Notes under the pieces: model-generated
Told to the model about the DNA's origin: nothing
The model's database searches: none
Seen by the model: only the letters and a program-made list of their open reading frames with translations
Shown here: piece after piece, positions 8,301 to 48,600 of the stretch
How positions within the stretch are numbered: position 1 is the stretch's first letter
Layout of the letters: each line of letters begins with the position of its first letter
Position numbers and translations under genes: made by a program
DNA from: Candidatus Thalassarchaeum betae
GTDB taxonomy: Archaea; Thermoplasmatota; Poseidoniia; Poseidoniales; Thalassarchaeaceae
Direction: 5' to 3'
Length of the DNA stretch: 64,000 bases
NCBI GenBank assembly: GCA_022447095.1
Contig: JAKUUP010000003.1
Coordinates: forward strand, 1-64,000

Positions 8301-11300
8301 TCGATGGCCACAGAGCCCATCTCCGCGTAGATGTTCACAGGTACCGAGACCTCTTCTGGTGGCGGATCGTCCTGAGTTTGCGAGTCATGATAGGATGCAA
8401 CATCCGGGCCAAGTCCGGAGGCGTTCTCGAAGATCATGTAGCCGATCCCCATCCTAGTCAGCGTCACCGTCTGGGCGCTGCTTGAATCGATGCTCAGGGA
8501 GACTTCCCTCCACTGCCTTCCGGTGTCGGAATCGGTATGGCTGCCCGGCAGCGAGTTGATTGCCAGTATCTGGGCATTGTCGAGGATATTGTAGAACGGA
8601 GATGCGCCGGCGCTTCCAGTCTGGGTCGCGCTTCCCACAGAGACCGAGACCGGCGACTCGAAGCCGTCTGAGTCGGGGGCTATCGAGATGATGCCGGCGT
8701 TCACCACTCCGGCTGCTGGAATCCTGAAGGACAGCGAGGCGGGATTGCTGCCATCGAGAGCGAGTGAGGCCGCAGTAATCTGGTACTGGGGTTCGCCTCC
8801 AATGTCAGAAAGCAGTGATTGCCATCCGTAGTGACCGTAGTTAGTGCCGAACGGGAAGCTCCACTCGTGAGTCTCGTCACCGAGCACGTCAATGTCGGGA
8901 TTGAGTGCGGGCTCGGCGAAGTTAGCCGTCAAGACCATGCGATCGATCCAGCCGTTCGTGGGCAGCGAGACGGAAACCCCGAATCCGGGCTGCGGGTAGG
9001 TGAAGGCGATGCCGCCCTGTGAGAGCGTTGCCAGAGTCCCGCCGCTAGGGCCGAGGAGATCGATCGCCATGCCGCTGGAGAAGTTTCCGGAGAGTGTGAT
9101 GCTGTTGATCGGTCTCGAGGAATGGATGTAGTCGGAAGAGATGGTTCCGGCCACACCGGTAGCGGTGAGCAGTCCGGATTCGTTCAGACCGACGCTGGGG
9201 CTGAATTCCCATCCGTTACCCTCGATCGAAGCCGCCGTGAGTAGTCTCTTGCCACCGATGTGGATCTTCGTGACCTTGGGGGTCTCCTCCACGTTGTCGG
9301 TGTCCATGTGCAGCTTCAGTCGCATCTGGGGCGTGCTCGTTGTGTCGACGCCTGCAAGGGAGATCGGGAATGACACATTCGAGTAGCCTGGAAGAGCATC
9401 GCCGGTGGAAGGGGATATCAGCGAGCCGCGTATCCAAGTGTCGCCGGGGATGGTGGCGTCTATGTCGATGAAGCCGAGGTTGAAGTCGTGGATGTCTGAG
9501 GCGCTGAAGACCGGGCTGAGCCAGTCGCCGCCCTCCCCGTAGTTAGCGATCATCACCCCGACATTGTCGAGGTACCAGCCAGCGTAGTTCCAGATCGAGT
9601 CACTACCGCCGTGGAACTTGAAGCGCACGGTGTCCCCGGCGTACTGCGCGAGGCTCGCCTCCTTGTGCTCGAACGCGGTTGTTGCAACGGAGTATGTTGA
9701 GCCCGAGCCAGTGCAGTGAACCGAGCCGAAGTAGTTGGAGCCCTGGGGGATTCCGGCGTAGGTGTACGCGATGCTGGGCGTGTCGTAGAAGTTGTTACCG
9801 GGGTCCCAGTAGTTCCAGGATCCTGAACCGACCTTGATGAATATCCCGCCCCCGTCCCAGTTGTTCTCGAAGCACGCCCAGTGGTCGAAGACTAGGGAGG
9901 AACTCGAATTGGCCGGGAGGGTGTACTCGGGCGATATCAGATCGGCATTGAGATTGCCGGCGTATATCCCACCGAGGTTGATAGCCATGGCATAGGGGAA
10001 GGACGGTTCGTTGTTGGTAGGTCCTGCGGCCGAGGCGATTTGTCCGTATGACCACTTTGCACCGGCTGCGCCATTAGGATTGTTCCTAGTCCAGCCGCCG
10101 CCCGGCATGCTGGTCGAGGGGTTGCTGGCGGACGAGTCCTCAAAGCCCTTGATGACATCTTGGTCGCCTTCCGCGAAAATGTAGTAGGCCCAGTCGTCTA
10201 CTCCGGTTTGGGTGTTGGAGGAAGGAGAGGGCCAGACCGCGCCGTAGTGGTACATCGTGGTGGACGTCTCAAGGTCGTCCTCGAAAACCACGTTGTCCGA
10301 GCCGTCGACGATACGAATGGCGTAGACTGTCAGGCCCTCAAGCTCATCGGCGGGGCTGCCTCCGTACTGAGGAATATATGCATCGGAGTCGACGATGAAC
10401 CTGATGTGGACGCTGTTCTGGTTCTGGAACGTGGTCGGGATGTCGAAGGAGACGGACCTGAGGCCATTGCTCTGGTCACCGCTCACCCCGTCATAGCCGT
10501 TGATGCCCGGGATGGCCCCGCTCCTGTCCTCGCAGTTCTGAGTGGTGCTGGAGCCGGTGGACGAGATGTCAGTCCATGAGTTGTTGTTCAGGGAGAGCTC
10601 TACGCAGGCGTTGTCCGAATACGAGCCGGCCAAGTCCCACTCCATGTCGACCTCGATGTTGAAGGTGCTGTTGGTCCCAGTCAGGTTGAGTGTCCTCTGC
10701 AGGGCCCCATACATGTTGTTGGAGTACGAGCAGGACGAGCCGGGTGTGTAGCAGCCGCCGTGCCAAGCGCTGTTCATGATGCCATCGTTGTGGAAGTGGA
10801 AGTTGTCCAAGAACCATCCCGGCCTCTCGTTGGCTGCATTGGGGTCCGTCCAGATGTGGAGCCTGAACTGAATCTTGCTGGCGTTGCCGATATCCGGTAC
10901 CGAAGACATCGAGACGTTGCTGTTGACCCAGCCGCTCTGAATAGGGGAGGCGAACACCGGGACTGCTCCGGAGGGAGCGCCCTCTGGAGATGGGGCGCTG
11001 GTCGACATGGTACTCGGGTAGCCGCCGTCCGGAGCGATGTAAGTCCAGTCGGTCCAGCCGTTTGTGTTGATCCTGTACTCAATCCATGCCCCATCACCGC
11101 CGCCGGCGGCGGTGCTGTCGAGATGGTACCAGTGGTCGAAAGTCAGGTAGTAGCCGGCGATGGTCTCTTCATCGGGGACATCGACCTGAGACATCAGGAA
11201 GTACCCCGAGGTTCCTGCTGGCACAGGTGAGCCGGGCAGAGTTCCTACGGAGACTATGCCTTCGCTGGCTGACGCAGGGACCACCCCGTGGGCCAGCGTC

Positions 11301-12070
11301 TGTCCGTCACCGTAGATTGTCCCATTCAGACCGGTGAATGTAGTCGCCTGCCAGAGTTTGAACTGATGGCAGAAATATGTCTGATTGGTGATTTCGTTGG
11401 AGTCCAGCATATTGTCGCCGTCGAGATTCAGACCTGCCTTCATCAGATTGCCGGCGTAGGGGCAATTCGAACCGGCGGGCACCGGGAGGAAATCGAGCAA
11501 GTAGTACACTGAGGTGCCATTCACCACTTCGTCGCAGAAGTACTCGGTCCACAGCACCTCATCACTGTCTAGGTTGCTGTCGAAGTCGTTGTCCCAGCCG
11601 CGCTCTAGAGTAGTGCCGTTACTGCCGTTGCAGGCTGACAGGCCGGTGGAGTCATAGGCATGGCTGTAGACATGCCTCCAGCCGGGGCTGTACTTGTAGT
11701 TGCTATGCAGATTAACGGTGATATCGCCATCGTCGAAGGTGCTAATGTTAGATCTAGTCCCGTCGTCCGTAAGTACGATTTTCTCATCCTCAGTTAGGTC
11801 GGTTCCGAAGAAGGTCCCGGACGAGAAGTCGGAGCCTTCCCACACAATCCCATTGTCGACGGAGGTCGCCATAGGAGAGTCGGTCACATGGAGCCATCCG
11901 TCGAGGACGGTGGCGTTTCCAGGTACCCTGAAACCTGTCAGCGTGACATCCTCTCCCATGGGGTTGACCGAGTTCGGTCCGACCCAGTTGGCATTCGCTG
12001 CTGCGGCAATCGGTGCTAGGAGCATCAGGAGCACAAGGCCTCCTGCTAGTCTCTTACGCTCGGCTGGCAT
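5303..12070 (-). CDS. Giant secreted/anchored surface protein with acidic C-terminal tail
   Basis: About 2,255 residues. ATG at 12070 is preferred over the in-frame TTG at 12094 because it gives a compact signal peptide (MPAERKRLAGGLVLLMLLAP then AANA). The extracellular part has Asp/Asn-rich EF-hand-like turns near residues 110-180 (NLDGDNMLDSNE), several repeats ending in GWYLDNV or GWFLDNF that resemble MAM/jellyroll modules, and many NxS/T sequons. Near the C-terminus is one membrane helix (MLMIGGVLLLAVLGIGMFM), followed by Arg-Gly-Arg and a strongly acidic Tyr/Asp/Glu tail of about 45 residues that would face the cytoplasm. This fits a surface adhesin or cell-envelope protein; no catalytic motif was recognised. 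A TATA-like element (about 12094-12101) and a perfect inverted repeat at 12110-12126 lie just upstream. Confidence 0.88.
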   Translation of the reverse strand: MPAERKRLAGGLVLLMLLAPIAAAANANWVGPNSVNPMGEDVTLTGFRVPGNATVLDGWLHVTDSPMATSVDNGIVWEGSDFSSGTFFGTDLTEDEKIVLTDDGTRSNISTFDDGDITVNLHSNYKYSPGWRHVYSHAYDSTGLSACNGSNGTTLERGWDNDFDSNLDSDEVLWTEYFCDEVVNGTSVYYLLDFLPVPAGSNCPYAGNLMKAGLNLDGDNMLDSNEITNQTYFCHQFKLWQATTFTGLNGTIYGDGQTLAHGVVPASASEGIVSVGTLPGSPVPAGTSGYFLMSQVDVPDEETIAGYYLTFDHWYHLDSTAAGGGDGAWIEYRINTNGWTDWTYIAPDGGYPSTMSTSAPSPEGAPSGAVPVFASPIQSGWVNSNVSMSSVPDIGNASKIQFRLHIWTDPNAANERPGWFLDNFHFHNDGIMNSAWHGGCYTPGSSCSYSNNMYGALQRTLNLTGTNSTFNIEVDMEWDLAGSYSDNACVELSLNNNSWTDISSTGSSTTQNCEDRSGAIPGINGYDGVSGDQSNGLRSVSFDIPTTFQNQNSVHIRFIVDSDAYIPQYGGSPADELEGLTVYAIRIVDGSDNVVFEDDLETSTTMYHYGAVWPSPSSNTQTGVDDWAYYIFAEGDQDVIKGFEDSSASNPSTSMPGGGWTRNNPNGAAGAKWSYGQIASAAGPTNNEPSFPYAMAINLGGIYAGNLNADLISPEYTLPANSSSSLVFDHWACFENNWDGGGIFIKVGSGSWNYWDPGNNFYDTPSIAYTYAGIPQGSNYFGSVHCTGSGSTYSVATTAFEHKEASLAQYAGDTVRFKFHGGSDSIWNYAGWYLDNVGVMIANYGEGGDWLSPVFSASDIHDFNLGFIDIDATIPGDTWIRGSLISPSTGDALPGYSNVSFPISLAGVDTTSTPQMRLKLHMDTDNVEETPKVTKIHIGGKRLLTAASIEGNGWEFSPSVGLNESGLLTATGVAGTISSDYIHSSRPINSITLSGNFSSGMAIDLLGPSGGTLATLSQGGIAFTYPQPGFGVSVSLPTNGWIDRMVLTANFAEPALNPDIDVLGDETHEWSFPFGTNYGHYGWQSLLSDIGGEPQYQITAASLALDGSNPASLSFRIPAAGVVNAGIISIAPDSDGFESPVSVSVGSATQTGSAGASPFYNILDNAQILAINSLPGSHTDSDTGRQWREVSLSIDSSSAQTVTLTRMGIGYMIFENASGLGPDVASYHDSQTQDDPPPEEVSVPVNIYAEMGSVAIDGVMDFDYIMTNRDFQTPNTMYPNRELVEIMTKHHHLYDNDEIVKISLRGTASDGEILEFIATKDPTMGWDAPPAFSQSSGSSVAMLDEASSYTDNVVHNDGWTDISVHWMFEITWSWDDVDSIRWVAQAYDSTGETVWPAVSFSGQSGAKAVENDLQVDSFEIRDESGRLLSNQYSPFYPFPIMAGGQVNITGTVRFQDSVDTRPDSGDYSVGLDLSGNLFALASEDGGGYAGIVDPPSSLSELSLSPMMLTVGPTGSSTGAEDVTGVAPEVIIRVDSNPPIAGPMEVNTAIGLQSAHGKVWEPQNPLTLFVTIDEAEARGELITLRYWRETIDDVNMDGIADEDEYLSQQQPLTSGMTGQQQVQFAGLDVSSLPFNSIVHMYIEGTDWAGYSYQDGGTGGGPGAENAWASLVVATDEPTGIIPTGFDLDRELGYLLAGVPHTFSLQIDEPNGIHTLDNVTIMLCGDGPSTLGKFTYDPSRGTLWSADDSMVSPLAAQTVEVSNTVTQLSLGFQLSWDYPWEEGQLGCKPSISIVDDLNTVAYQNNIGELTWDLDNRYMAVPESVLDLTPPLIEPVGQMLYLRQGDEFQMDGTIYYAGSQVIASHIPEDLQVEIEVVYGTQEIDIVVDVEADGTFSGSMVLPSRVPLNPEMAVTTTVLNVPGLGSSGVNSDASVVVDSKSPQVLFNIAEYPDSSLTILDSDMLDDVTVTVTMVDEIGMVDGPLQVAWVYVRDNGPVAGTETTGELMMITDGDTNDVYQAILDLNPLNSMTIESGDYIWFWVTSTDRSGNEIIGSASAVAPRQVTLRIMEFLGQYTRSVINPTQTPIQGEILTIETFWENQGKREGELQVGLYELKDGGQWTESLSTARDGPIILSLPAESSSVYVEFQWESWQPGQPNLYLIVNDDFDNPYQPITGINVQPPPVTDEASEESQMLMIGGVLLLAVLGIGMFMARGRETEDYYYDDEEDYYEDDSWDVEDEEGEEEGEEEEEAAEEEVE

Positions 12071-12109
12071 GCATGGCACGTCGCTACACAGCAATATGAA
12101 TGAATTGGT

Positions 12110-21077: not shown

Positions 21078-24000
21078 ATGGTAGCGAGCGCTTCGCATAG
21101 GAACCCCGCAAGGTTGCGTCAAGTTGCCCTCGGCGCAGCAATGATGCTGCTGATGTCACTGTCTCCGGTACTCGTCCAGTTCGATACACCTCTCAGGATG
21201 GAGTCGGGTGACGGAACCGGAGAGCCATGGGTCGACGGGGGTCAACCATGGCCGCAGTCAGGTAGGACTCCAGACAAGGTTGCGGACGTCCCGACGCACA
21301 GTCCTGACGGGGGTGCTGGCAACGGCACACCAAGTGATGCGCCAGAGTTGATGTCGGTTGTCGAGCCGTCAGTGAACTGGGTCTACGGCTCCTACTCGAC
21401 TGGCACAGATGCTCTAGCCACCCCGATTGCAGATCTGTCTGCATCTGTTTCCAAAGACGAGGATGCTTCAGAACGCTGTGGCGGCAGTTCGCTTTACAGC
21501 ATCCTTGTACAGACTGATTCAAATTCAGATCACACCTACTTAAGAATCGTCGAGGGCGAGGATGCCGACCTCGCATGGGAGATCGACTTGGGCTTGACAG
21601 AGTACGTGAAGGCGGCCCCGATGGTAGTCGATATCGATGACGACGGCATGCAAGAGGTTCTCGTCGCTTACGATGCCTCTGGAACCCTCTATCTCGATGC
21701 TTGGTCCCCTAGGCTTACCTGCTCGGTCACGGGCTGGTCCTCCGGGGGTCATGAGGGCGAGTTGCTATGGTCATGGAGCGACGATTCTCTGATGATTAGC
21801 AGCGATGTGGGGCCATACACATGGAGCGGTCTGGGTGGGCACAAACCAACAGCCCAGCCCCTTCTCGCTGACTTGGATTTGGATGGGGATGCTGAGGTCG
21901 TCATCGCAGCCATAGATGAGGTCTCTGAGGATCCCGTTGTAGTCGCACTGGGGCTATCCAATAGCGGGGCTACCGCGTTGTGGGACGCTACCTTGGACAA
22001 GGGCAGCCACCCTTCCGACCCAGCTTTCGCTCAGACCGACGAGACTACCGGATACGTTCTCCTGACAACTACCCAACACAACAACGGGGCGATGTGGGTA
22101 TGGAAACTGGATTCGACGAGCGGTGATTCCAGTTGGGACGGGCTTTCTCTGGCCAACTCCGATGGTGACACGGACGCGCCCCACGTCAGGTTGCCTGGGC
22201 CTGTGATAGCCAACCTAGACGACGACTCCGCCCCTGAGATGGTACTCACGATACCTACGGATATCGACGGTTACAACTCTGCCGATGGGGCGGAGTTCAT
22301 CGGAATGGAAATCGGGAACGGCGATGAGTTGTGGTCATTCGAGGCTTCAAACGGTTACGCCGACGCGCCTCCGGTGGTAATCGACACCGATGGCAACGGG
22401 GAGCATGACAGGGTCTGCTGGGTCACTTGGTCTCAGGAGACCACAGACAGACACGGCCATGCAGGCTGCCACGATGTAGGCGGCTCCAGTCCCGACCAAG
22501 CCTGGCAGAAGGCCCTTGAGCAGAGCAGTGGTCTGCCTAACGACGAGATTGCGGTCGCCCCGCCTACATGGATGGACATAGATGGCGACGGAAAGCAGGA
22601 GTTACTCGTCGCATACGGGCGCTCCCTGTGGGCCTTCGATGGCGATGACGGTTCATCATCCACAGTCTGGGGAGGAGCGCTTGAACTCAGCCACAGAACC
22701 TGGTCAGCCCCCGCCCTTGCCGATATCGACGGAGATGCCACTCTGGACATAGTTCTCGGAGACACTGTCATCTCGTTAGCGATGGCCGATGTCAGGCCAC
22801 TGCTTGACCAGCGGGGCATAGAATTCAGCCCCAGCGCGCCCGACCCGGGCGAGACGGTGACCGTGACCGCATTCTTCGAGAACTCGGGGACCGCGGACAC
22901 CGATGGCGAGACCAATGCACTGCTGTATGCCAACGGTGAGGAGATAGGGAGTTATGAGGCAGGGACAATGGAACCCTCCGACCCCACTGGCTCAGGAGTC
23001 TTCGAATCGTTCAGCATAGAGTGGAGTGGGCCCTTGGGCGAGCACACTTTCGAACTGGTCCTCGACCCCTATGGCAACATCACACAAACAAGGCATGACA
23101 ACGACGCCCAAACGACTACGCTATCTATCGTAGCCGCTTACAACGCCACCTTTGAGATTTCTACTGAACCTGTGAGAATAGACCCCGGGGGCAGCGCCCT
23201 TGCAACTCCAAATGTCCGTTCGACAGGAAGGTTAGCAGGAAGTTGGAGTCTTGCTGTCGACGACTCCGCTCTGCCGGAGGGCTGGACTTGGAGTGACGAG
23301 ACCAGCGGAGGCTTGAGCGGTGTCGGGATAGACGTCGATGGAGTATGGACTCCAAACCTCCGCATTCACGCCCCAACAGACGCCCTAGGATCCGATGCGG
23401 GTCACCTTGGCCTTACTCTGACTCTAGACGACGACCCGGACAACGTCAGCGTTTCCGCTACGCTGCCGATCGAGGCCAACAGGAGTCGCGGCCTCTCACT
23501 GCGCGGTCCGGACGGGACTGCGTCAAGCACGGGATACGGGCTGATCGGCACGGACGCCCATGCATGGATGCTGCTCCACAACCTCGGCAACGCCGCAGAG
23601 AACCAGATAACTATCTCGTGGGATAGCACTTCTTGGGGCTCCGACCTCAGACTTTACGATACTAATGGCGACGAGCAACCGGCACTGGCTCTGGGTCCGA
23701 ATGAGGTGATGATACTAACCGCGAGGTTGGCGGTGCCGGACGACGTGTTGCTCGGAGAATCGGTCTCCACTCCTCTCTCAATGTGCGTTGGTAATGGCGA
23801 GGAAGAGACGTGTCAGACAATATTCCTGACTTTCGAGGCCGCGGGTGTCGTTGCCGATGTGCACCAGCGGAGCGTGCCGGCACAGGGCCTCGAATGGGCT
23901 ATCTACGCTGATATGCCCATTGGAGTGACGCAACTGACTTGGTCGCTCGCAGACGCTGGTATGACTGTTCAAGGATGGTCCTGGAGCGCGACTGGCGACT

Positions 24001-26678
24001 TGTCGGTCGCCGGAGACACAATCATCATGACAGAACTGGTAGAATCTCAGGCCGTCGGGACTCTGGTCCTCGACCTGCCCGATGATGCTCCTCCAGCCTT
24101 CCACTCCTTCTCCGATGCCAGTGACCAATCATCGGACCATGTTCTGAGGCTCTCACTCGAAGTCTTGCAGATTCACAGGGCCTCACTGGTAGTTACCTCT
24201 CCGACCGAACAACCTCACTTGGTAGAGGTCAGTGAGGAGGCTCTGGTAATGGTCCGCCTCGAGAATCCTGGCAACGGGGACGACACTTATCACTTGACTT
24301 ACGGAATCCTCCTCGACGAGAACATTACTGAGGATCCGGGCGTGGAGGTTTCATTCTCCAATGACATGGTGTCCTTGAGCGCAGGCAGTCTGACCAACAT
24401 ACCTGTAGCCGTTACACTACCTGATACTACTCCTGCTCGTGCCCCCGTCAGTATCGAGATATACATGACCTCAATGGGGGACCAGTCGGTTAGTGACTCG
24501 GACGTCGTGATTCTAGAGGCTAGGCAGGATCACCGATGGAACATCACCGCGAGCGTCGGTGAATCTACTGCCGGCGGGCGCACCTTCGCCGTTGCTCCAG
24601 GAGGGATGCTCGAAGTGAGTGTTGATGCGCAAAACATCGGTAATCTGAACGACGACCTGACTCTGACAGTGAGTTATGAAGTCACCTTGACGGGCGTTGA
24701 CGGCTCACAAGGCTGGGACTCTCAGGGAGATGCGGCAGTCGACGTCGGAGTGAATCAGACTGCACTGATGACGGTCAACGCGACCGTACCTGCAGATGCA
24801 TGGAACGGCTCTACGATGCAAGTAACCGTCACCGCCGTTGCTCAAGATGAGGATGTAGGTTCGTTCACCTTCGGTATCGAGGTGACTCATGTGCCAGCTT
24901 GGTCGGCCTCGGCTGACCAGACCTACCTCGATATACACCCCAATGGCTCAAGCATAGAATTGACTGTGATTCAGCAAGGCAACTCCCCCACGATTCCATA
25001 TGCTACAGTGTGGGTGAGTGGCGAGAGCGGTTGGGATGTTTCCGTCCCCGGCGAGCTCCCCGTACTTTCCCCCGGTGAGACTGCTCCTATGATGCTCAAT
25101 ATCACCCCGCCAGATACAGCGCAACACGGCAGGTCGGTGGAACTACACGTCAAACTTAGAGAAGGTGATGGCAATGGAGAGACAGAGATTACTCTGCCTC
25201 TGCGTGTCGCCATCATCAACGACTTCAATCTGAGCGGACAGGGTCCTTGGTTCGTATCTGACGATGGTGGACATCCGCTCGCGGAACTTCAGAACCTCGG
25301 TAACGCCCCCACTACCATCACCCTGCAGGTCCTGAGCCTGCCCAACGGGTGGACCGTAGCCGGGCAAACCGAAGTCGTCCTCGGCGTCGATGAGATTAGA
25401 GGTGTTCCTCTAGAGGTGATTCCGGCTTCTGACTGGGACGGCAGCGTCCGGACCATACGCATCCTCGCCGAGGACGCTGTAGGGAACCAGCGTGAGGTCG
25501 CTCTAGACACTGAGCAGTCGCCGTACTCCTGGGCATCCTCTCCCGTGGTAGTGGTAATGATGGGTGACCATGCCTTGCTTCAGATTCACGGCACTACCTC
25601 TGCTTCCAGTGTCGTCGATTCCTCATCAGGACAGTTGCAATGGGACGATAGGGGCGGCTGGGCGTTGCCGGCGGTCGCCGGTGGCGATGGCTCCTTGAGC
25701 GTGGGTTCATCCAGCCTCGGCTACGTCGCCCATGTCGTCGAGCCGTCTCTCAGGTCTGCTGAGTGTAATATTCTCGGTAGTTTCGAAGAGGTGGTGGCAC
25801 ATTGTTCTATATTCAATGGGACGGAGGCATTCTCATACTCGATTCTCCTCATCGACGATCAGGGAGTGATGCTGGATTCCGCGTCCGGTCAGGTCTCTGC
25901 AGGCTCCTCTCATGGCCCAATCAACCTCAGCGCTGAGGGCTGGAGTCCGGAGCCGGGTAGCAGGACCCTGACTCTGAGACTGCTGGACGGGAGGGGTTTC
26001 CAGGTCGCTGTGGACGAGACGGACTTCCTAGTCAGAAGGAGTGATTGGAACATAGGCCTGGTGGAACTAGAGCTTGACGGAGAAGGTTCGAACCAGGAAG
26101 TCAAGGTCCTCACTCGAAGGACCAACCACCAACTACTGACTGATGCCGACTGCCATCTCGCGGTAGTCGCAGGAGAACATTCCTCAACTCATCTGGTAGA
26201 TTGGAGCAGCACATTGGCCCCCATCTTCAGAATTGATCGTCCCGATGTCGATGATGGCGTCGAGATCGTGGTGACCATCGGATGCGAGTTCCCATGGGAC
26301 CTAGATTCCGACTCAAGCGATAACGAGGCCAGACTGATTCTCTCGGGCGGATCTGTGGGGCCCTCGGGGTACGCCGACATGGGAATTGCGGTGACTGCAG
26401 CCCTGCTGGTGATTGGCGTATCTCTGGCTTTCGCATGGATGCTAAGGAGTCATCGAGAAGGCAAGGAACTCATGGAGATGGCCATGGCGGCTGCAGAAGA
26501 GAGAGCGGCCAAGAAGCGTATCGAACCGGAGTCTTCCGACGCCCCTGAGCCTTCCCAAATGGAACAGGATGAAGATGAAGAGGACGGAGAAGAGGAAGAT
26601 GGACCTGAACCCGAAATAGAGGATGAGCCTTTGGATGATTTCGAGACCAGACTCAAGCGGCTCATGCGAGAAGACTAG
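21078..26678 (+). CDS. Giant surface protein: FG-GAP propeller, CARDB/NEW3-like repeats, membrane anchor, acidic tail
   Basis: 1,866 residues. An N-terminal signal segment (VALGAAMMLLMSLSPVLVQF) is followed by at least six FG-GAP-like calcium loops about 50-70 residues apart (VVDIDDDGMQEVLVAYD, LLADLDLDGDAEVVIA, WMDIDGDGKQELLVAYG, ALADIDGDATLDIVLG), expected to fold as an integrin-like beta-propeller. From about residue 580 there is a CARDB-like module, then several Ig-like domains with the NPGNGDD / NIGNLND / NLGNAPT pattern. One membrane helix (IAVTAALLVIGVSLAFAWML) near residue 1775 is followed by a cytoplasmic helical segment (MAMAAAEERAAKKR) and a Glu/Asp tail. Probable cell-surface adhesion or scaffold protein; no enzyme motif. 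Ends 6 bp before the convergent sulfotransferase stop. Confidence 0.87.
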   Translation: MVASASHRNPARLRQVALGAAMMLLMSLSPVLVQFDTPLRMESGDGTGEPWVDGGQPWPQSGRTPDKVADVPTHSPDGGAGNGTPSDAPELMSVVEPSVNWVYGSYSTGTDALATPIADLSASVSKDEDASERCGGSSLYSILVQTDSNSDHTYLRIVEGEDADLAWEIDLGLTEYVKAAPMVVDIDDDGMQEVLVAYDASGTLYLDAWSPRLTCSVTGWSSGGHEGELLWSWSDDSLMISSDVGPYTWSGLGGHKPTAQPLLADLDLDGDAEVVIAAIDEVSEDPVVVALGLSNSGATALWDATLDKGSHPSDPAFAQTDETTGYVLLTTTQHNNGAMWVWKLDSTSGDSSWDGLSLANSDGDTDAPHVRLPGPVIANLDDDSAPEMVLTIPTDIDGYNSADGAEFIGMEIGNGDELWSFEASNGYADAPPVVIDTDGNGEHDRVCWVTWSQETTDRHGHAGCHDVGGSSPDQAWQKALEQSSGLPNDEIAVAPPTWMDIDGDGKQELLVAYGRSLWAFDGDDGSSSTVWGGALELSHRTWSAPALADIDGDATLDIVLGDTVISLAMADVRPLLDQRGIEFSPSAPDPGETVTVTAFFENSGTADTDGETNALLYANGEEIGSYEAGTMEPSDPTGSGVFESFSIEWSGPLGEHTFELVLDPYGNITQTRHDNDAQTTTLSIVAAYNATFEISTEPVRIDPGGSALATPNVRSTGRLAGSWSLAVDDSALPEGWTWSDETSGGLSGVGIDVDGVWTPNLRIHAPTDALGSDAGHLGLTLTLDDDPDNVSVSATLPIEANRSRGLSLRGPDGTASSTGYGLIGTDAHAWMLLHNLGNAAENQITISWDSTSWGSDLRLYDTNGDEQPALALGPNEVMILTARLAVPDDVLLGESVSTPLSMCVGNGEEETCQTIFLTFEAAGVVADVHQRSVPAQGLEWAIYADMPIGVTQLTWSLADAGMTVQGWSWSATGDLSVAGDTIIMTELVESQAVGTLVLDLPDDAPPAFHSFSDASDQSSDHVLRLSLEVLQIHRASLVVTSPTEQPHLVEVSEEALVMVRLENPGNGDDTYHLTYGILLDENITEDPGVEVSFSNDMVSLSAGSLTNIPVAVTLPDTTPARAPVSIEIYMTSMGDQSVSDSDVVILEARQDHRWNITASVGESTAGGRTFAVAPGGMLEVSVDAQNIGNLNDDLTLTVSYEVTLTGVDGSQGWDSQGDAAVDVGVNQTALMTVNATVPADAWNGSTMQVTVTAVAQDEDVGSFTFGIEVTHVPAWSASADQTYLDIHPNGSSIELTVIQQGNSPTIPYATVWVSGESGWDVSVPGELPVLSPGETAPMMLNITPPDTAQHGRSVELHVKLREGDGNGETEITLPLRVAIINDFNLSGQGPWFVSDDGGHPLAELQNLGNAPTTITLQVLSLPNGWTVAGQTEVVLGVDEIRGVPLEVIPASDWDGSVRTIRILAEDAVGNQREVALDTEQSPYSWASSPVVVVMMGDHALLQIHGTTSASSVVDSSSGQLQWDDRGGWALPAVAGGDGSLSVGSSSLGYVAHVVEPSLRSAECNILGSFEEVVAHCSIFNGTEAFSYSILLIDDQGVMLDSASGQVSAGSSHGPINLSAEGWSPEPGSRTLTLRLLDGRGFQVAVDETDFLVRRSDWNIGLVELELDGEGSNQEVKVLTRRTNHQLLTDADCHLAVVAGEHSSTHLVDWSSTLAPIFRIDRPDVDDGVEIVVTIGCEFPWDLDSDSSDNEARLILSGGSVGPSGYADMGIAVTAALLVIGVSLAFAWMLRSHREGKELMEMAMAAAEERAAKKRIEPESSDAPEPSQMEQDEDEEDGEEEDGPEPEIEDEPLDDFETRLKRLMRED

Positions 26679-29293: not shown

Positions 29294-30280
29294 TCAGTTC
29301 CGTCTGACCACTTGGTAGATGATGAAAAGTGAAAGTAATGCTATTGCTATCCAGCGCCGGTCGAATTCATTCGCTGCATCTTCATCGTGAGACACGAATA
29401 GTTCCTGAGCAGTATCCAGAGGAGGGGAATTGTCCGAAGCCATCAACACGATTCCTTCTATGTGGTAGGGGGCGCCACCCCTCATGCCCTTGGAAACCGC
29501 CTTTGCGTTTGTCATAGAGGCCATTACGAAGTCGCAGGTGTCGGCCCTTCTGAGATCCTCAACAGCCTCGAATTCGCCACCGCTGTTCCAAGTCCTGAAT
29601 TCAATCCCTCGGTCCACTGAATAGTGGCTCTCCATCCGACTTACGACCATTCTGGAAATCTCGACCTCGTATCCCTCCATCTCAGCACTCTCGTCCAGTT
29701 TCGACATCGGCGAGCCCTGATCATACATACAGGCCACCATTTCCTTTTCGCCCTCTATTATACGATGGAGGGTGCCGCCCTCAGTAGGGGTTGGCCAATC
29801 GCCCATTACACTGGAGAAATCGGAACCCTTCAGTTCGGTCTCCCCGTGGAACCATGCCATGTATGCTTGCTGGCCGGTGCTTGATGAGAATACCTCCTCT
29901 AGAGCGGCGGAGATAGCATCGAGGAGTTCGGTGTTCCCCCTATCGTCCTGAGTATCGGTACGCACCACCGGAACATACGATTCGGTCTCCTCAATCATCT
30001 CGATGATGTAGAGGCCGGGCATATTGTCAGTGTTAGCCGGATCGGCAGCGATGAGGTGAGAAGTCAGCATGAAATCTTCTTCTCCAGACATCAAGGCACG
30101 CATGGCGAGCTGATGGTCCTCGTAGCCGTTTTCGATTATGTGCCCGTAAGAGCCGATTAGATGCGATACAGGTGTCTCCTGAGAGGAAGCGACGTTGTAC
30201 TGTACCCCTCCTAATGCTACTATGGGAGTTGCCGACAGAACCAATGCACTGAGGAAGAGTGCGAACTTCGCGCTCCTCAT
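29294..30280 (-). CDS. Membrane-anchored solute-binding-like protein, lobes in permuted order
   Basis: 328 residues with a signal peptide (FALFLSALVLSATPIVALGG) and a C-terminal membrane anchor (IAIALLSLFIIYQVV). Residues ~170-290 resemble the first lobe of family 3 (polar amino acid) binding proteins: GTLHRIIEGEKEMVACMYDQ, EGYEVEISRMVVSRM, ADTCDFVMASMTNAKAVSKGM. Residues ~30-155 resemble the second lobe that normally comes after it: LAMRALMSGEEDFMLTSHLI, SYVPVVRTD, ELLDAISAALEEVF, AYMAWF. So the usual lobe order appears reversed. It is divergent from the permease gene at 30341 and is presumably the receptor of that ABC transporter, held at the membrane by its own helix. Fold assignment is by eye; the transporter context supports it. 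Confidence 0.72.
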   Translation of the reverse strand: MRSAKFALFLSALVLSATPIVALGGVQYNVASSQETPVSHLIGSYGHIIENGYEDHQLAMRALMSGEEDFMLTSHLIAADPANTDNMPGLYIIEMIEETESYVPVVRTDTQDDRGNTELLDAISAALEEVFSSSTGQQAYMAWFHGETELKGSDFSSVMGDWPTPTEGGTLHRIIEGEKEMVACMYDQGSPMSKLDESAEMEGYEVEISRMVVSRMESHYSVDRGIEFRTWNSGGEFEAVEDLRRADTCDFVMASMTNAKAVSKGMRGGAPYHIEGIVLMASDNSPPLDTAQELFVSHDEDAANEFDRRWIAIALLSLFIIYQVVRRN

Positions 30281-30340: not shown

Positions 30341-32659
30341 ATGCACGTCAGAAGCCGGGGGTTCGCGTTGTCAGAGGCTGTCTCAAGAGTGCTCAACCCT
30401 CTGGGGAAGAAGAGTAATCGTCTAGTCGCAATCCTATCGTTTGTGATCCTCATCACTCTGATTACTCCTACCCAAGCGGTCGATTACAACAGCGGTTGGG
30501 ATGTCGCCGACAGTGGTACTGAAGTGGACCTCTTCACGGCGGCCTACGATGGTGAATCGGTCTTTGCTTTCGGTGCTGGAGGGGTGATTCTCCAAAGCGC
30601 CGACAAGGGCGCCACATGGGTGCAACTGGATTCACCTGCTACGACCAGCCTGCATGCGTCAGACTCTGTCGAAGGCGCAATCGCGGTAGTCGGAGAGGGA
30701 GGAGCGGCTTTCCTGCGTGCTGCTGGCAGCGATACATGGCTGGACATCTCCCTGAACCCGCCCGTCGACTTCAGGGGAATGGCGATGACCAGCGCTACTT
30801 CACTGGTCGCCGTAGGCCCTGAAGGGGGCGTCTGGCAATACTCTAGCGATGCTTGGATGCAAAGGGATTCCGGAGTAGTCACAGATCTCAACGATGTGTC
30901 CTTCCTCGATTCCACCCTAGGGATGATAGTGGGAGACAGCGGCACCATCCTTGCTACCAATGACGGAGGCGAAAGTTGGGAGTACAGGGAGGCCCCGGAA
31001 GGGTTGGTTGCGGACATAGTAGCACTCGATTATTACAGTAACATCAGGGTATATGCGGTAACGGACGAGGGGAACATCCTAAAATCGGTTGGAACGACTA
31101 CTGGCACCGCGGCCGGTTATGTCTGGGAACTAGTCGAGATTGAATCGGCGGGCAGAGCCACCAGCCTAGGATTAGAGTTGAGTTCCATTGACGTATCATC
31201 TGTGAACAAGTTACTCGTCTCAGGCCCCTCAAGCTACGTTGCTCTGTCGCTAGATGGAGGCAACATCATCACCTCTCAGATGAACCCACTACCTAGCGTC
31301 AAGGACTTCAATCACGTCTTGTTCCTCAATCTGTTCGATGCAGTAATTGTAGGTGCTGATGGAGTTATATTATTTTCAGAAAATGCCGGAGAGGACGAGG
31401 CGATTGGATTTCAGGTAATCGATTACGGCGACTTCGGGCAGTTCGTCGACTACTCAAAGGGAATGCTGATTGATGGGCTATTCGCGACTATCAGAATTGT
31501 TCTATTCGGAATCTTCCTTGGTTTCTTCCTCGGTGTCATACTCTCGATGATGAAGACCGCCCCCACTACCCTGAAGGATGTTGCACAACTCGATAGATAC
31601 TCTATAATCAGAATAATTCTAATCCCATTATGTATCATTGAGGCTGCCATTCCTTTCATTCGATTAAATGAGAAATCGTGGTCTGCAACAAGAGCAGTAG
31701 GGAGGTTGCGTACTCTGTCCGCCACTTCTACGAGACCGCTCAACACCCTAGCCCTGAGGGCACTGGGATTGGGGATGCTATACTACGGGATTTCGCTGAT
31801 TTTCGCTTTAGCTCCGATAGTTTGGGCCCTAAATCTGGACGGTTTGGAATACATCTACGCGCCTATAGGCCTCATATCTCCGGATGGTATCAATGGAGAG
31901 TTATATTTCGAGAACTTTTTCCAAGCCCTACTTGGTATTGCGTTGATCCTGTTGGGCCTACTGTTCCTGACCTCGAGGAAATTCTTCCTCAAGAGAGAGG
32001 TGCGCCTGCCGTTCCGCGACATCACGCTAAAGTGGAATTTCTGGGGAGTGAGGCCGTTGAACGCTGTCGCAACCGTATACACCGACCTCTTTCGCAATAC
32101 TCCACTGATTGTTCAGTTCATGTTCATACACTTCGGGGTGCAGTTTGGCAAGTTGTTGGGAGATCCGGCTGCGGCAATCCTTGAGGGTGAAACGAATTCC
32201 TTCCTAGTATACATCAGAGACACGATTCTATCAGACAGGGCATGTGTTAGCGCCATCTTCGCTCTTGGCCTGAATTCAGGAGCATATCAGTGCGAGACGA
32301 TACGTGGTGCTATCGCAGCGATTCCCTCTGGCCAGATGGAGGCGGGCAGGAGCATTGGACTGAATTATATGCAGACGATGGGGCTGGTCATCATGCCTCA
32401 GGCAATCAGAATTTGCATACCTCCTATGGGTAATGAAATGGTCAACCTCGTGCTCAACTCATCACTCGCAATGGTCATCGGCTATGCTGAACTAACTAGA
32501 AAGGGACGGCTAATCAACGCCGTTACCTTCCAACTCTTCTGGGGTTATGGCATGGTACTGGTATCTTACTTCGTTGTAACTTGGACGCTGGCTCTGCTCT
32601 TGAGGCATCTCGAGAACAAGTCGAGGATACCTGGACTTGGAATTTCAGGGGGTGCATGA
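30341..32659 (+). CDS. ABC amino-acid-type permease fused to an extracytoplasmic YCF48/BNR-like propeller
   Basis: 772 residues. A signal/anchor helix (AILSFVILITLIT, ~28-46) leads into ~300 residues of propeller repeats with Asp-box-type turns (SADKGATWVQL, ATNDGGESWEY, GMIVGDSGTIL). Membrane helix DGLFATIRIVLFGIFLGFFL (~378-400) matches the first helix of HisM/GlnP-type permeases. The rest of that domain resumes only at YTDLFRNTPLIVQFMFI (~580) and includes the ATPase-coupling EAA-type loop AAIPSGQMEAGRSIGLN (~660-680). Between them about 170 residues carry three further hydrophobic segments, where normal family members have ~20-30 residues. A polar amino acid or similar solute is the expected substrate. 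The ATPase gene follows with no gap. ATG 30341 or TTG 30368 may be the start. Confidence 0.88.
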   Translation: MHVRSRGFALSEAVSRVLNPLGKKSNRLVAILSFVILITLITPTQAVDYNSGWDVADSGTEVDLFTAAYDGESVFAFGAGGVILQSADKGATWVQLDSPATTSLHASDSVEGAIAVVGEGGAAFLRAAGSDTWLDISLNPPVDFRGMAMTSATSLVAVGPEGGVWQYSSDAWMQRDSGVVTDLNDVSFLDSTLGMIVGDSGTILATNDGGESWEYREAPEGLVADIVALDYYSNIRVYAVTDEGNILKSVGTTTGTAAGYVWELVEIESAGRATSLGLELSSIDVSSVNKLLVSGPSSYVALSLDGGNIITSQMNPLPSVKDFNHVLFLNLFDAVIVGADGVILFSENAGEDEAIGFQVIDYGDFGQFVDYSKGMLIDGLFATIRIVLFGIFLGFFLGVILSMMKTAPTTLKDVAQLDRYSIIRIILIPLCIIEAAIPFIRLNEKSWSATRAVGRLRTLSATSTRPLNTLALRALGLGMLYYGISLIFALAPIVWALNLDGLEYIYAPIGLISPDGINGELYFENFFQALLGIALILLGLLFLTSRKFFLKREVRLPFRDITLKWNFWGVRPLNAVATVYTDLFRNTPLIVQFMFIHFGVQFGKLLGDPAAAILEGETNSFLVYIRDTILSDRACVSAIFALGLNSGAYQCETIRGAIAAIPSGQMEAGRSIGLNYMQTMGLVIMPQAIRICIPPMGNEMVNLVLNSSLAMVIGYAELTRKGRLINAVTFQLFWGYGMVLVSYFVVTWTLALLLRHLENKSRIPGLGISGGA

Positions 32660-33496
32660 ATGCCGGGGAATGTGTTGAGTGTCACTGACATGCACAAGAT
32701 CTACCCCGGAGGGGTCCATGCCGTCCGAGGCATCTCGTTCGAGGTAAACGAAGGGGAATCTGTAGCAATCATAGGGTCCTCAGGAAGCGGTAAGTCGACT
32801 GTTCTGCGATGCATCAACCGACTAATCGAACCCACCGAAGGAGTCGTGCGTCTGCGCGGCGAACACATCAACACCCCCGGGGCCGATATCAACGATGTCA
32901 GATCGAGAATTGGGATGGTTTTCCAGTCATTCGAATTGTTTGCACACCTGAAGGTCATCGACAACGTGACACTAGGTCTGAGACATGTCAGAAAGATGAG
33001 CAAGAACGAGGCCAAAGAGATAGCGATGTCCGCTCTTGAGCGTGTTGACCTTCTTGATCGAGTTGATGCGTACCCCGGAAATCTCTCTGGTGGACAGAAG
33101 CAAAGGGTAGCCATCGCCCGGGCTCTCGCGATGCGTCCCGAGGTTATGTTGTTCGACGAACCGACCAGCGCCTTGGACCCCGAACTGATAGGCTCGGTCC
33201 TAGCTACCATTAGAGGACTGGCTGACGAGGGCATGACGATGGTGATCGTAACTCACGAAATCAGTTTCGCAAGGGACGTTGCTGACCGCATCATCTACCT
33301 AGACGAGGGGGTTGTGGCCGAGGAGGGGCCCTCATCAATCATAGAGGAACCCCGGACTGAACGGCTCAAGAGGTTCCTGTCCTCGATACACGAAGATGAG
33401 GTCCCAGAGCAAATCCACGAAGAATTGGTGGATGAGGATACTGATTATGGATACGTTCCTGATGGTAGAGGAGAACGGCCACGTGGAGGCCGCTGA
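32660..33496 (+). CDS. ABC transporter ATP-binding protein, polar amino acid type (GlnQ/HisP-like)
   Basis: Energises the permease encoded directly upstream; its start codon follows the permease stop with no gap. Complete nucleotide-binding domain: Walker A GSSGSGKST (about residue 40), Q-loop MVFQSFELFAHL, signature LSGGQKQRVAIARAL, Walker B VMLFDEPTSALDPE, H-loop VTHE. The FQ-F-LF-HL pattern is typical of the GlnQ/HisP subfamily. The last ~35 residues are an acidic extension (EDEVPEQIHEELVDEDTDYG) beyond the core. Confidence 0.95.
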   Translation: MPGNVLSVTDMHKIYPGGVHAVRGISFEVNEGESVAIIGSSGSGKSTVLRCINRLIEPTEGVVRLRGEHINTPGADINDVRSRIGMVFQSFELFAHLKVIDNVTLGLRHVRKMSKNEAKEIAMSALERVDLLDRVDAYPGNLSGGQKQRVAIARALAMRPEVMLFDEPTSALDPELIGSVLATIRGLADEGMTMVIVTHEISFARDVADRIIYLDEGVVAEEGPSSIIEEPRTERLKRFLSSIHEDEVPEQIHEELVDEDTDYGYVPDGRGERPRGGR

Positions 33497-42621: not shown

Positions 42622-45600
42622 TCAGGCTTCGGTGAGGAACGAATCCCGTTCTGGGATGTCTTGCAGTTCGTCTATCTCCTGCAGAACCGTGGACAGCGCC
42701 ATCTGCGCGTTCTGGCGATGCGGCTCACCGAGCACGTGGCTGGAGTACCTAGCCTCCTCGAAAATCCGGTCTAAGGCGACGAGAGCCTGCTCGCTGATTG
42801 GCAGGGCGTTGCGAATCGCCAACTCAAACTCACGCACCGTCTCGAAGTCCCGGCGCAGGAATCCCCTGCGCATGAGAATCCGGCACAGGCTCTCGTAGCA
42901 GTTGAAGATAGCCTCGCGGACCTCGTCGCCTGCTGCCAGTAGTTCAGCAGTGTAATTGAACACCCCTGCGAGCTCGTCAATAGCCGCCTGCTTTCGACGG
43001 CGGAAGAGCACGAGGGACCCGGCTAGCAGACCGAGGACAATGAGGGCCACGAGTGCGTACAATGCCGGTCGGAAGGACTGCGGGTCCTGCTGCTCATACT
43101 CGATGTCGAGGCCACCGTGGAAGTTGGCCAGCCATGTCTTGTTTATCGGGTCGACGAAATCCGAGTTGGTGCTGAAGCATACTCGCAGTTCGCCCCAGAA
43201 GCTGTCGTTGTGGAACGAAGGCAGACCGATGACCGATTCGAACTGGTAGGTGAACTCGCCACCCTGGTCTGTCAGTCCGACCCTGCTGAAGTGGGTAGAG
43301 GAGTCTCTGTTGTCGCAGGTGCTGTTGACCAAGTAGGCAGACAGGGGGAAGTCCGGCACGGGTTGCCCGGTGTCCAGCGCTGAGACATTGACCGATCCTT
43401 CGAGCAGTCTCTGACCCTCTGCTAGGAACAGCGAGTCGGGCTCGAAGACGAAGACGACTGAGATCAGAATCATGACTTCGACTTCGATGGAGTCGCCATT
43501 CAGGTATCTCGAGCCGTCTGGCTCGACCTTTATCGTGAGTGTCAACGGTCCAGGGGGCATGACTTGGATGGCATTGGTGATGAGGCCGAAGTGTTCGGTG
43601 CCGTCATCCTGCCACGGGTTGCCTATCAGGGGCAGCAGGCTGTCGCCCCAGTACAGTGCTATCGTCATGTTGTGCATGACGTTGCCCTCGCCGCCTATCT
43701 CCAGGATGCGTCCCTGAAGTTTGATTGGGGAATCAGGATCCCCGCGGATGATTGCCAAGTTATTCGAGAACACTTCGATGTCGATGTCCGCTCTCGTGTA
43801 TACGGTCATATTGTACTGCACCGGGAGGTAGAATGTCTCGCCGGAGAATGAGAATGCCACATTGTGGGGGCCGCGGGCAATCGCGTAGCCAACGTCGTGT
43901 GAGTAACTGAAGGTGCCGTCAATCGAAGTGGTCAGACTACCTACGATCTGCCCATCGAGCCTGAAGACGAGTTCCCTGCCCTCCATACCGGGGTGCCCCG
44001 AGGAGTCGGCGTCGAAGAGGCGCCCGGTGAAGTTCCATGTTCCCCCTCGGGTTATGACAGTCGAATCCACCTGCAAGGTCATCCCGGTGTGATAAGCGAC
44101 CGTCAGCACAGTCTCAGTTGAGTCGAGGCGGTGATAGCCCTGTTCAGGGGCCATGATGATCATAGTGTGGTTGCCCACTTCAAGGAAGTCAGAGACTACC
44201 CAGGCATAGCTCCACCCTCCGTTCTCGTCGGTGCTGGTTATGCCCACCAACACGCCATCGACGAAGATCTGCAGGGAGTGGTTGGACAACCACCCCTCCG
44301 GCAGGTTGTCCTTGACCGTTCCTTGCAGGGTGAGCAAGTCTCCGACAGCGATAGTGGGGGGCTTGACCACAGATACCTCGACTGGGCCGTAGACAGTGAA
44401 GATGGTCGAGGAGTTGGAACCCAGTATGAATTCCTCACCTTGGAAAGATATCAGCACCACACGAGGGCCGAGCTCCATATCAGGAGGAACGGGGATGTAG
44501 AGGCTGAAGGTCCCATTCTCATCAACCGTCAAGCCAGTCAGGAACTGCCCGTTCATAGAGACGTCGAGGTCCCTGTAAGGTAGCACCCTGCCTGAGCCGT
44601 CGGTCAACATGCCCTCGATAAGCAGCAGTTCGTTACGGTCGATATCACCCGGTGGGGTAGTCAGCACGACCTGTGAGGTCTGGGTTGCATTGAATTGCGT
44701 AGTATGGGATGATGGCAAGTAGTACTCTGGATTAAGGGAATCACCCTGGCCCATCGGATCAACCCAGGTAAAACCGCCGAGGAAGTTCACGGTGACTGTA
44801 TGCATTCCGTAATCCACGTCCAGAGGCAAGTCGTAGGTGATTGACCACTCTCCTGTGCTGGCGTTGGACTGCGTGGAATACGTCGGTCCGACGGTGACGC
44901 CGTCGATTGCCAGATGGATGATTCCACCGGCGGCATTGCCTCCGTGAAGCAGTAACTGGCCGTGCTCGTCTAGCAGCGTGCCGCTGAAAGTGATACTCTC
45001 CCCGGCTATCGCGGATCCTGTGATTGAAGTGATGTTCAACTCTGTCGGTGCCAGAATGATGACACGTGTCCACGACTCGTCGCCGAGCAGGCCCGTGGTG
45101 CCGTTGATTCCAGCGAACTGTGCCGTGATTGTCATCGGTCCAGGTGCCCTCATGACGTCGACCGACAGGACGGTGTTCATCGAGCCGTTGACATCGGTGG
45201 TCCCGCGCCACTCAAACAAGCCGTCCACATACATATCGACTGGGACTGAATCCACAGGCTGCCCTGCATTGTCGATCAGCGAGATGTTGACGCTGATGAC
45301 GTCGCCACGAATGGTCCTGCTGTCGGGGTCGAGGTCCGAGGGATCTAAGATGGACAGTAGTGAGTACCCCCGGCTGTCGAAGGTGCCGTTTCCGGTGCTC
45401 GAGCCGTAGTAGTTGACATTGGGAGTGTAGGTGGCCATCAGGTCGTGCGTCCCTCGCGGGAATGAGAGGTCGAGGTGGATCACGGCGCTCCAAGAGCCGT
45501 TCGGGGAAACCGCTCCCCCAGTCATGGTGAATGTGTTGCTCTGGCCATCAATGTTGAATGTCAGCGCTGGTGAAAGGGTGTTACCGTCGCGGTCAGTGAT

Positions 45601-48600
45601 GCCACTGCCGTTGCTGGACGTCAGCATGCCGCTGACTGTGAAGAACTCGCCGGCAGCAGGGTTGTCAGTTATCGGGTCGAGAGTGAGGTTGGTCGGCGAT
45701 CTGATGGTGATGGTGGTGATGATAGTCGCCGTCGAGTGCAGGGTGCTGGAGCCGTTGAACATGAGTGTGATGGCTATCAGACCCAGAGGGTGGGAGTGGG
45801 GTATTTCGAAACTGAAGTTGGTCATCCCAGCGCCATTGGTCTGCACCGGAGTCAGCCAAGTGTCGTGGAACTTCGCTGTCACAGTCGCATCGTCAATCTG
45901 CCTGTCGTTGTCACTCGACTCGACCAGTCGGGCGCCGAAGTTGACGGAAGAGCCCCTATCAGCGACAGTGTTGATGACTGGGTTCCTATCGATGAATTGG
46001 GTCACGCCGCGGACTAGGATCGAGGCGTTGCCCGTGCCGGTCAGGTAGAATGGTGAGCTGCCGTTGATGACGCTGACTACGACGGTCTTAGTCCCACTAG
46101 TCACTCCGTCTCCCATGGGATCGGTCGGCACCAAGATAGTGAAAGACCCGTTGCTTGAAGTTGTCTGACTCAATACCAGAGTCTCACTGGCATCATTCAG
46201 GAAGAAGACTTCTACTGCCATGGGTCCGTTGACAGTTCTGTTGCTGTCCGCGCCGTCGATGACCCGGCCGCTAATGGAGAATGCCTGCCCAGCGGTCACC
46301 TCTGTGGGAATGCTGTCGATCTCGACAAAACTCGAGACCTGCACTGTGAGGTTCACCAAGCTATCGTTGCCGAGCCACCGTCCGGCGTTCTCAACAGTCA
46401 GGTTGTCCGATAAGTCGTCTGGTGCGTGTACTCGCACGGAGTAGTACCCAGGCGGGGTCGATGCAGGAATCATCGAGTTGAATCTAACGAGGCCGTCGGA
46501 ACCCGTGGTCTGGTTCTGTAAAATCTGCTGGAGTGGCCCACCCCAATCGAAGTAAAGGTCTGCGAGAACGCCTTGCAGCAGGCCGTCGTCTTCGACATCA
46601 GTAATCGTCGCATTGAGCGTCATAGTGGAGCCAGCGGCGACTATCAGCGAGCCGGGGGCGGCCACGACCACGAACTCGGTCTGGATGCCCGCCCTGACGT
46701 ATTCGGCTTCTTGCTCCTTGAAGAAATAGCCACCTTGGGGAGGGAAGCCCGAGAAATCCAGTTTCACCCTTAGATCGTAGACGCCCGCTCCTACGCCGCT
46801 GGGCATTACGAAACTCATGTTGTACCCTCCGGTGGACTGGTTGATCCAGCCAGATGCTAGGCGGTAGATCACAGGTGAAGCCGGTGAGCCATCAGGAGCA
46901 GGGGGGAGGTTTGAGGGGACTTCCAGTTGGACCAACACGGAGGAGTTGTTCCCAAGAATCGGTATCTCGTGGAAGATGTCGTTCGCTGATCCTGCTACCC
47001 AGTTGGTAGCCCCTCTCGGAGTCCATTCTAAGCCGATTTCGACAGTTGCGTTGGCCCTTCCTCGAATCCTGATCTCATCTACTGCTGTGGCCGGATAGAA
47101 CCACGTCGAGCCGGAGAAATTCAGCACCCAGCTGTAGTCACCTGCGAACATCTGCCACGGTGGCGTCCAAGTGACCTCCAGCCTCGGATTGTCGGGATCT
47201 GTGACATTCCAAGTCTCGGGGCCGTTTGTTGTGTTCCAAGACTCACTGCCGTTGAACTCGAGGACATATGTGCCCCGGAATTGTGCTAGGGAGGTATATG
47301 TGTGATCCGTCAGAATCACCTCGACGTTGTTCAAATTGCCTCTCATCGCTGGTCCCAGAGTGTAGTTGAAGTTGATGAAACTCCTTATTCCGTACTGGTC
47401 TGTGAAGGTGGACTGATCGTTGGCATACAGGCCCTCCGAATCGAACTCGACTTTCACTTGTACCTCCCCTGCCGGTATGGGTACGTCGGAGGCGGCGAAC
47501 AGCCAACTGACGGCGAACTCCCCGGGAGTCGTGGTCCAATTGCTGTCATTGAGGTACCACGTAGCGAGGGTAGTGTACGGGCCATTCGTGGTTGCACGGC
47601 GCATCTTTAGAAACAGCGTGCCATTCAGAGACTCAGTGTTCGGCCCCCGACTCAGAACAGTCCCGTTGAGATAAACTGGCTCGTCGATGTCCAAAATGGA
47701 GTTGTTCGCGTCCGTTCCTTCCAGTGTGACCGTGAGATTGGGTGCAGGGGTGATGTTGAACATGAATCCAAATGTGGCTGGCCTGACATGGTACGAGGGT
47801 GTGCTGGCGTTGTTCAGGTCCTCTTCGTGCCATCCGAAGAAGTTCAGTGAGGCGTTGATCAGACCGAGCGGTTCGCTCTCGTTAATCGCCAAGGAGAACT
47901 CGTAGTAGCCACCAGCCCCGATTTCAGCGATCAGGCTCACTGGGCCATCAGTGGCGGTAGTGTAGTTCAGTATGACCTGCATGCTGTCCAAAGCAGAAGG
48001 GTCGGTGTACGGGGCGCTAGCCCAGTACATGTCGCCCGTCACCAGCGTTTCCACGCCCGCGCCCAAGGGAGGCTCATCGGTCGGAGGAGGTTCCCTCAAA
48101 GATAGATTGACGTCATCTGAAACGTTCAGGCGCCACTCGAATGAGATTCCTTGAGAGCCGACATATGCCCTCTCAAGCACGTGAAGCACAAGGGCCCCGA
48201 AACCGGGATCTATGACGATGTCCGGAGTTCCATTGAGTTGGAAGCTGCCGTTCTGATCGGTCGTCCCGTTGGCTACCAGATGGTGGCTGACAGCCGCACT
48301 TCCCGGTACATTGGCGGTTTGGTTAGACCTGACTAGATAGAGGTTGAGCGTGATGTTTTCTGCAGCACTGTGGTTTTCGACGAATCGCAACGAGCCGTTC
48401 AGCCATATCGAGCCAGAGGAGTGGTCCCTCTCGACCCAAGTAGGACCCCATTCCTGGTTCACCACCTCTATCGAAGCCATCTCGGGGCAGGCCTCAAACG
48501 GAACCCAGCCCATGTCCAACCCGCCTTGGTTCGCATTGGTCTCAAGGTGGACCTCGACCCATCTGGTGAAGTCCTTGCCGTAGACCTCAAAGGAATCCCC

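Follow-up and report, generated by a model that had tools for sequence, protein, structure and literature searches.

The gene P0001, located in a 64,000-nucleotide stretch of DNA analysed in full (the window), very probably encodes the extracytoplasmic binding protein of the adjacent ABC importer, and its product is a circularly permuted descendant of a polar-amino-acid solute-binding protein (SBP) of family 3, type II. The host is a Marine Group IIb (MGIIb) archaeon of the Ca. Thalassarchaeaceae, and its closest named relative is Candidatus Thalassarchaeum betae, with 75% identity across the full length of P0001. The open reading frame singled out in a preliminary description of the window was found in place, with every quoted peptide in the quoted order. 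The chain runs from a putative signal peptide through lobe 2 and the C-terminal helices of lobe 1 into a linker of ~24 aa, followed by the remainder of lobe 1 and a predicted membrane anchor (table 1). The N terminus is signal-like in its hydrophobicity, E35-T36-P37 occupies the position of the GTT loop of relatives, and the lobe-1 segment has two conserved cysteines, Cys184 and Cys249, as well as Val262 in place of the arginine that binds the alpha-carboxylate.

Table 1. Window coordinates of P0001, its constituent segments and the neighboring transporter genes.
Feature	Coordinates	Strand	Remarks
P0001, whole permuted binding-protein gene	29294..30280	(-)	328 aa
P0001 residues 1-25, putative N-terminal signal peptide	30206..30280	(-)	hydrophobic maximum 2.24 at residue 7; ends approximate
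P0001 residues 26-112, lobe-2 segment	29945..30205	(-)	from GTT-loop strand through return strand
P0001 residues 113-146, C-terminal helices (packed against lobe 1 in canonical proteins)	29843..29944	(-)	GNTELLDAISAALEEVF...WFHG
P0001 residues 147-169, junction linker, old C terminus to old N terminus	29774..29842	(-)	ETELKGSDFSSVMGDWPTPTEGG
P0001 residues 170-295, lobe-1 segment beta1-alpha1-beta2-alpha2-beta3...	29396..29773	(-)	
P0001 residues 310-325, predicted C-terminal transmembrane helix (membrane anchor)	29306..29353	(-)	followed by RRN
Divergent partner, permease with N-terminal YCF48/BNR beta-propeller	30341..32659	(+)	772 aa; Pfam PSII_BNR E 4e-12
GlnQ-like ABC ATPase	32660..33496	(+)	ABC_tran E 2e-37

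Both halves of P0001 are homologous to SBP_bac_3, and they occur in swapped order. The Pfam model matches the protein with 35.9 bits (curated cut-off 26.4, E 7e-9), its positions 89-131 falling in the N-terminal half and 4-98 in the C-terminal half, and it was the sole match of a Pfam scan that returned no sugar-binding family. The lobe 1-lobe 2-lobe 1 chain of SBP_bac_3 is thus swapped in P0001 and all of its orthologues, bearing out the earlier reading of a lobe-2-like segment ahead of a lobe-1-like one. Searched separately against SBP_bac_3, the check proposed in the preliminary description, the N-terminal half scored weakly (E 0.044) and the C-terminal half more strongly (E 1e-5); from the P0001 sequence by itself, the family 3 homology of the N-terminal half is only suggestive. 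The homology was settled by a profile of 15 P0001 orthologues searched against solved amino-acid-binding proteins, where it matched AncQR (4zv1) at a whole-sequence E of 8.6e-16, followed by ArtJ, GlnH and other members. Profile residues 32-144 align to AncQR chain positions 126-231 (i-E 7.7e-8) and residues 194-292 to positions 25-115 (i-E 1.3e-4). The structures predicted for P0001 were of very low confidence, both alone (pLDDT 37) and with eight orthologues (pLDDT 36), and a Foldseek search of the PDB with the pLDDT 36 model returned no hit with an E-value below 0.8. We infer a two-lobed type II Venus fly-trap (clam-shell) fold from the homology of the sequence.

P0001 has orthologues in ten genomes of the source genus (the source genome included) and in two other genera of the Ca. 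Thalassarchaeaceae; the permuted order is kept in 15 orthologues across the three genera, and a profile scan recovered C-then-N order in nearly every reasonably complete member sampled. A profile search of 390 genomes of the phylum added a single group, from a sister order within the same class that is probably Marine Group III (MGIII); it consists of five permuted proteins that are near-complete and a sixth that is partial (MGIII-like hereafter). The recurrence of the permuted order and of the joining linker in related archaea indicates that the rearrangement is real and old, and not a sequencing accident. Chance or a chimeric assembly was ruled out as an explanation, since the arrangement is shared by 15 sequences of independent genomic origin and recurs in a second taxonomic order. 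Relatives were absent from the viral contigs searched, and none of the plasmid records searched contained 80% of the permuted query at a single locus, the plasmid matches listed being half-length family 3 matches.

Wherever the contig is long enough, in the P0001 family and in the sister order alike, the SBP gene is divergent from a propeller-bearing permease gene, after which comes a GlnQ-like ATPase gene. The window's permease has a HisM/GlnP-type BPD_transp_1 domain (E 1e-13) and matches the NCBIfam GlnP-type permease (E 3e-34). On the basis of this arrangement we call P0001 the binding protein of that importer, and a role in transport together with it may be presumed. The MGIII-like propeller permeases (loci L101, L103, L104 and L105) are shorter than that of the window, at 606-619 versus 772 aa, and the extra sequence of the latter lies between the first transmembrane helix of the permease domain and the FRNTP motif. 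Our literature search found no paper combining 'Ycf48' with 'ABC transporter permease'. The window also encodes three very large surface-type proteins of 2263, 1866 and 2990 aa (5303-12094 (-), 21078-26678 (+) and 42622-51594 (-)), with DUF7151, FG-GAP/CARDB and Transglut_core/Ig-like domains.

The position of the break and of the join was located with a canonical profile of 261 HMM positions, built from canonical-order proteins of the same phylum. Doubling the permuted sequences mostly left two matches unmerged because the signal peptide and anchor stand between them, and we therefore trimmed both, moved the cut point along the chain and scored each rotation against the profile; canonical-order controls gained no score on sequence doubling, and reversed sequences gave no score. 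Scores rose on rotation from 18.0 to 38.0 bits for P0001, from 23 to 48 for L012, from 66 to 139 for the MGIII-like protein L103, and from 97 to 133 for a representative of a second permuted family fused to LivK-type domains (see below). In every scanned protein the best cut fell at the W-F-G end or inside the linker after it, and for P0001 it was the start of the junction linker. Once rotated, the permuted chains gave one collinear match of about HMM 33-257, which shows that the linker connects the old termini and that the new termini are at the lobe 1/lobe 2 crossover. The break falls in the loop just ahead of the lobe-2 GTT strand, with the join placed after the normal W-F-G end; in MGIII-like proteins the two pieces abut, the match of the N-terminal half beginning at HMM 135-144 and that of the C-terminal half reaching 144-146. 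With a score that approximately doubles on rotation at one point, the analysis confirms in substance the earlier proposal of circularly permuted lobes: P0001 is a permuted GlnH/HisJ-type protein. Since the N-terminal half also includes the C-terminal helices of lobe 1, the chain has undergone a genuine circular permutation, as opposed to a simple exchange of its lobes.

The same order could be produced by fusing a lobe-2 fragment and a lobe-1 fragment of two different binding proteins, and the identities of P0001 to other groups, at 16-25%, are too low for tracing each of its halves. We consider such a fusion highly improbable, given the one-piece alignment of the rotated chain and the agreement between halves in the relatives: in MGIII-like and LivK-fused proteins both halves rank relatives alike, the half-wise identities between these two groups being 46% and 41% and those to canonical proteins 29% and 28%. 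The presence of one linker in families with different ends also fits a tandem copy of a single protein.

The LivK-fused family is represented in the source genome by a lipoprotein (G000:C16, locus L001) whose N-terminal domain matches SBP_bac_3 profile positions 35-131 and then 2-39, and it is found also at L018, L147 and L148. LivK-type (Peripla_BP_6) domains follow the permuted SBP_bac_3 domain, two of them in the longer copies. In this family the break separates alpha1 from beta2 of lobe 1, whereas that of P0001 is at the lobe crossover. Its junction, VVLTDDRTADTATAYPTPTEGSTL, resembles both the MGIII-like junction, VVLTDDTDANTADAYPANATG, and the WPTPTEGGTL end of the P0001 linker; a linker of the form VVLTDD..A.TA.YPTPTEGG/S is recognisably common to the MGIII-like and LivK-fused proteins, and the P0001 family keeps the YPTPTEGG part. 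One canonical-order copy (G032:C19) begins with YPEPSEGSSL and finishes with EPYLINDWTPDQ, and hence has one half of the linker at each end. This copy (L079, 3-2678 (-)) is part of an 892-aa multi-domain surface protein in which the canonical-order SBP_bac_3 domain is accompanied by four LDL-receptor class A-like stretches.

A LivK-fused family with the same linker and different ends, together with linker halves at the ends of G032, suggests a tandem duplication whose products were then truncated in different ways. By the likely route the domain would have been duplicated in tandem, after which the N-terminal part of the first copy and the C-terminal part of the second were lost. The old C terminus (lobe-1 C-terminal helices and W-F-G) would thereby have been joined through the linker to the old N terminus at lobe-1 beta1, and new ends opened at the lobe crossover, immediately ahead of the GTT-loop strand. 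No such tandem-duplicated intermediate was present among the sample of ORFs fetched. Large ORFs with several tandem SBP_bac_3 domains in canonical order occur elsewhere in the phylum (G262:C4, G276:C1, G300:C17 and G362:C3).

For phylogenetic comparison the permuted chains were rotated before alignment; L064, whose rotation had been made at a wrong WP motif, and L128, a canonical row with a branch length of 3.48 that appears to be in the wrong reading frame, were both left out of the residue comparisons and tree tests. The canonical proteins of Thermoplasmatota are set apart from the others by a branch with support of 99/98, and the MGIII-like, LivK-fused and G032 proteins group together (97/92). 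The P0001 clade has a long stem branch of 1.4-1.5 changes per site, and the AU test rejected neither its placement with the MGIII-like proteins (p 0.215) nor that with the LivK-fused proteins and G032 (p 0.213). A single origin of the permutation is therefore neither established nor rejected, and it is the simplest reading. Two permutations could instead have occurred independently in Poseidoniia, at the lobe crossover in the P0001 family and MGIII-like proteins and after lobe-1 alpha1 in the LivK-fused family, with joins that are alike by convergence. The differing new termini and the place of the canonical-order G032 inside the 97/92 clade are in keeping with this, but the linker is recognisably the same across these groups, in the P0001 family by its YPTPTEGG part, and placing G032 outside the clade is not rejected (p 0.22), leaving independent permutation rather improbable in our judgment. 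A pair of cysteines in beta1 and beta3 is found in all 13 members compared of the P0001 clade, in all six LivK-fused proteins and also in G032, and is absent from the MGIII-like and canonical proteins compared, which favors common MGII ancestry. In P0001 these are Cys184 and Cys249, on adjacent lobe-1 strands, and may form a disulfide.

The residues that contact the ligand differ between the permuted groups. We take the Arg of MTxTxxR to hold the alpha-carboxylate in GlnH and HisJ, and the GTT loop and the lobe-2 Asp to be ligand residues as well. The Arg, GTT and Asp are kept in all five MGIII-like proteins, and the ligand residues likewise in the LivK-fused (6/6) and canonical (23/23) proteins. 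None of the 13 aligned members of the P0001 clade has the carboxylate Arg, V, I or M being present instead; the lobe-2 Asp is kept in two and lost in 11, and neither the beta1 Asp nor the YPPF aromatics have been retained. These losses make the ligand of the clade uncertain and binding of the usual kind doubtful, suggesting that the ligand of P0001 has changed or been lost, while an amino acid is the probable ligand of the sister-order protein. We infer from these residues that a standard alpha-amino acid has ceased to be the ligand in MGIIb and is still the ligand in the sister order.

The same losses, with the long stem branch of the clade, could mean that the permuted protein there no longer captures a solute and has become a degenerate or regulatory membrane partner contacting the permease or the propeller. 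Many positions are nevertheless invariant across the three genera, including Cys184/Cys249 and W143-F144, the gene remains beside an intact transporter, and loss of such residues has accompanied a change of ligand in other SBPs; we regard a degenerate partner as unlikely. As a binding protein P0001 would be secreted and held by the transmembrane helix at its new C terminus, near the hinge, and as a Venus fly-trap that is still two-lobed it would deliver its ligand to the propeller-bearing permease. The C-terminal anchoring helix suggested by the preliminary description agrees with a hydrophobic helix followed by basic residues in all P0001 orthologues, from which a membrane-anchored topology may be deduced.

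P0001 shares with the SBP_bac_3 proteins (PF00497; GlnH, HisJ, ArtJ and AncQR 4zv1) the homology of its halves, predicted secretion and an adjoining GlnP/HisM-type permease and GlnQ-type ATPase, and its sister-order relatives also share their ligand residues. It differs in the permuted order and the C-terminal membrane anchor, and members of its clade have no carboxylate Arg and in most cases no lobe-2 Asp. A solved circularly permuted binding protein is TpMglB-2 (Tp0684) of Treponema, a glucose-binding lipoprotein classed as 'Type Ic / Cluster Bc', whose authors suggested both a subclass of permuted proteins and a connection with membrane tethering (PMC4990184). Like P0001 it is a naturally permuted, two-lobed and membrane-tethered binding protein of an ABC importer, but it belongs to a Type I sugar-binding family without family-level homology to P0001, is anchored as a lipoprotein, and has three strands of one lobe moved with a resulting fourth hinge crossing. 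Glycine betaine-binding proteins have been related by permutation to each other, to molybdate-binding proteins and to CysB through structure comparison (PMC2395249). That case too concerns circular permutation within type II binding-protein folds, at less than 24% identity and with another ligand class, whereas the P0001 case lies within one sequence family with a recognisable linker. The earlier claim that no binding protein of this order had been described holds for family 3, for which the open-access literature yielded no permuted protein, and fails for other families in view of these two reports (PMC4990184; PMC2395249).

High transcription of amino-acid receptors (AapJ-type and LivK) has been reported for the Ca. 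Thalassarchaeaceae, abundant marine archaea, and the passages of that report consulted make no mention of a permuted domain in them (PMC9723583). These are amino-acid receptors of the same archaea as P0001; the AapJ-type proteins, unlike P0001, gave canonical-order matches, and the LivK frame holds the second permuted family 3 domain. One reading frame contains both the permuted domain and the Peripla_BP_6 matches in the source genome and in most of the same-family genomes examined, so the livK described as highly transcribed is probably the permuted fusion gene.

For the wider account, we see about an even chance that a tandem duplication underlies the permutation of family 3 SBPs in Poseidoniia and gave rise to two descendants that differ in their termini and share a junction, one of them anchored at its hinge end and working with a beta-propeller permease, the permuted domain occurring also in a LivK-type receptor. 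Natural circular permutation usually comes to light only when the structures of remotely related proteins are compared. In the present case, permuted proteins, a canonical near relative, a linker visible in sequence and differing termini in two families would make the duplication-truncation route directly testable. The case also illustrates how annotation by a single best domain hit conceals rearrangement. A binding protein anchored C-terminally near its hinge and serving a permease with an extracellular propeller would be an unusual importer design.
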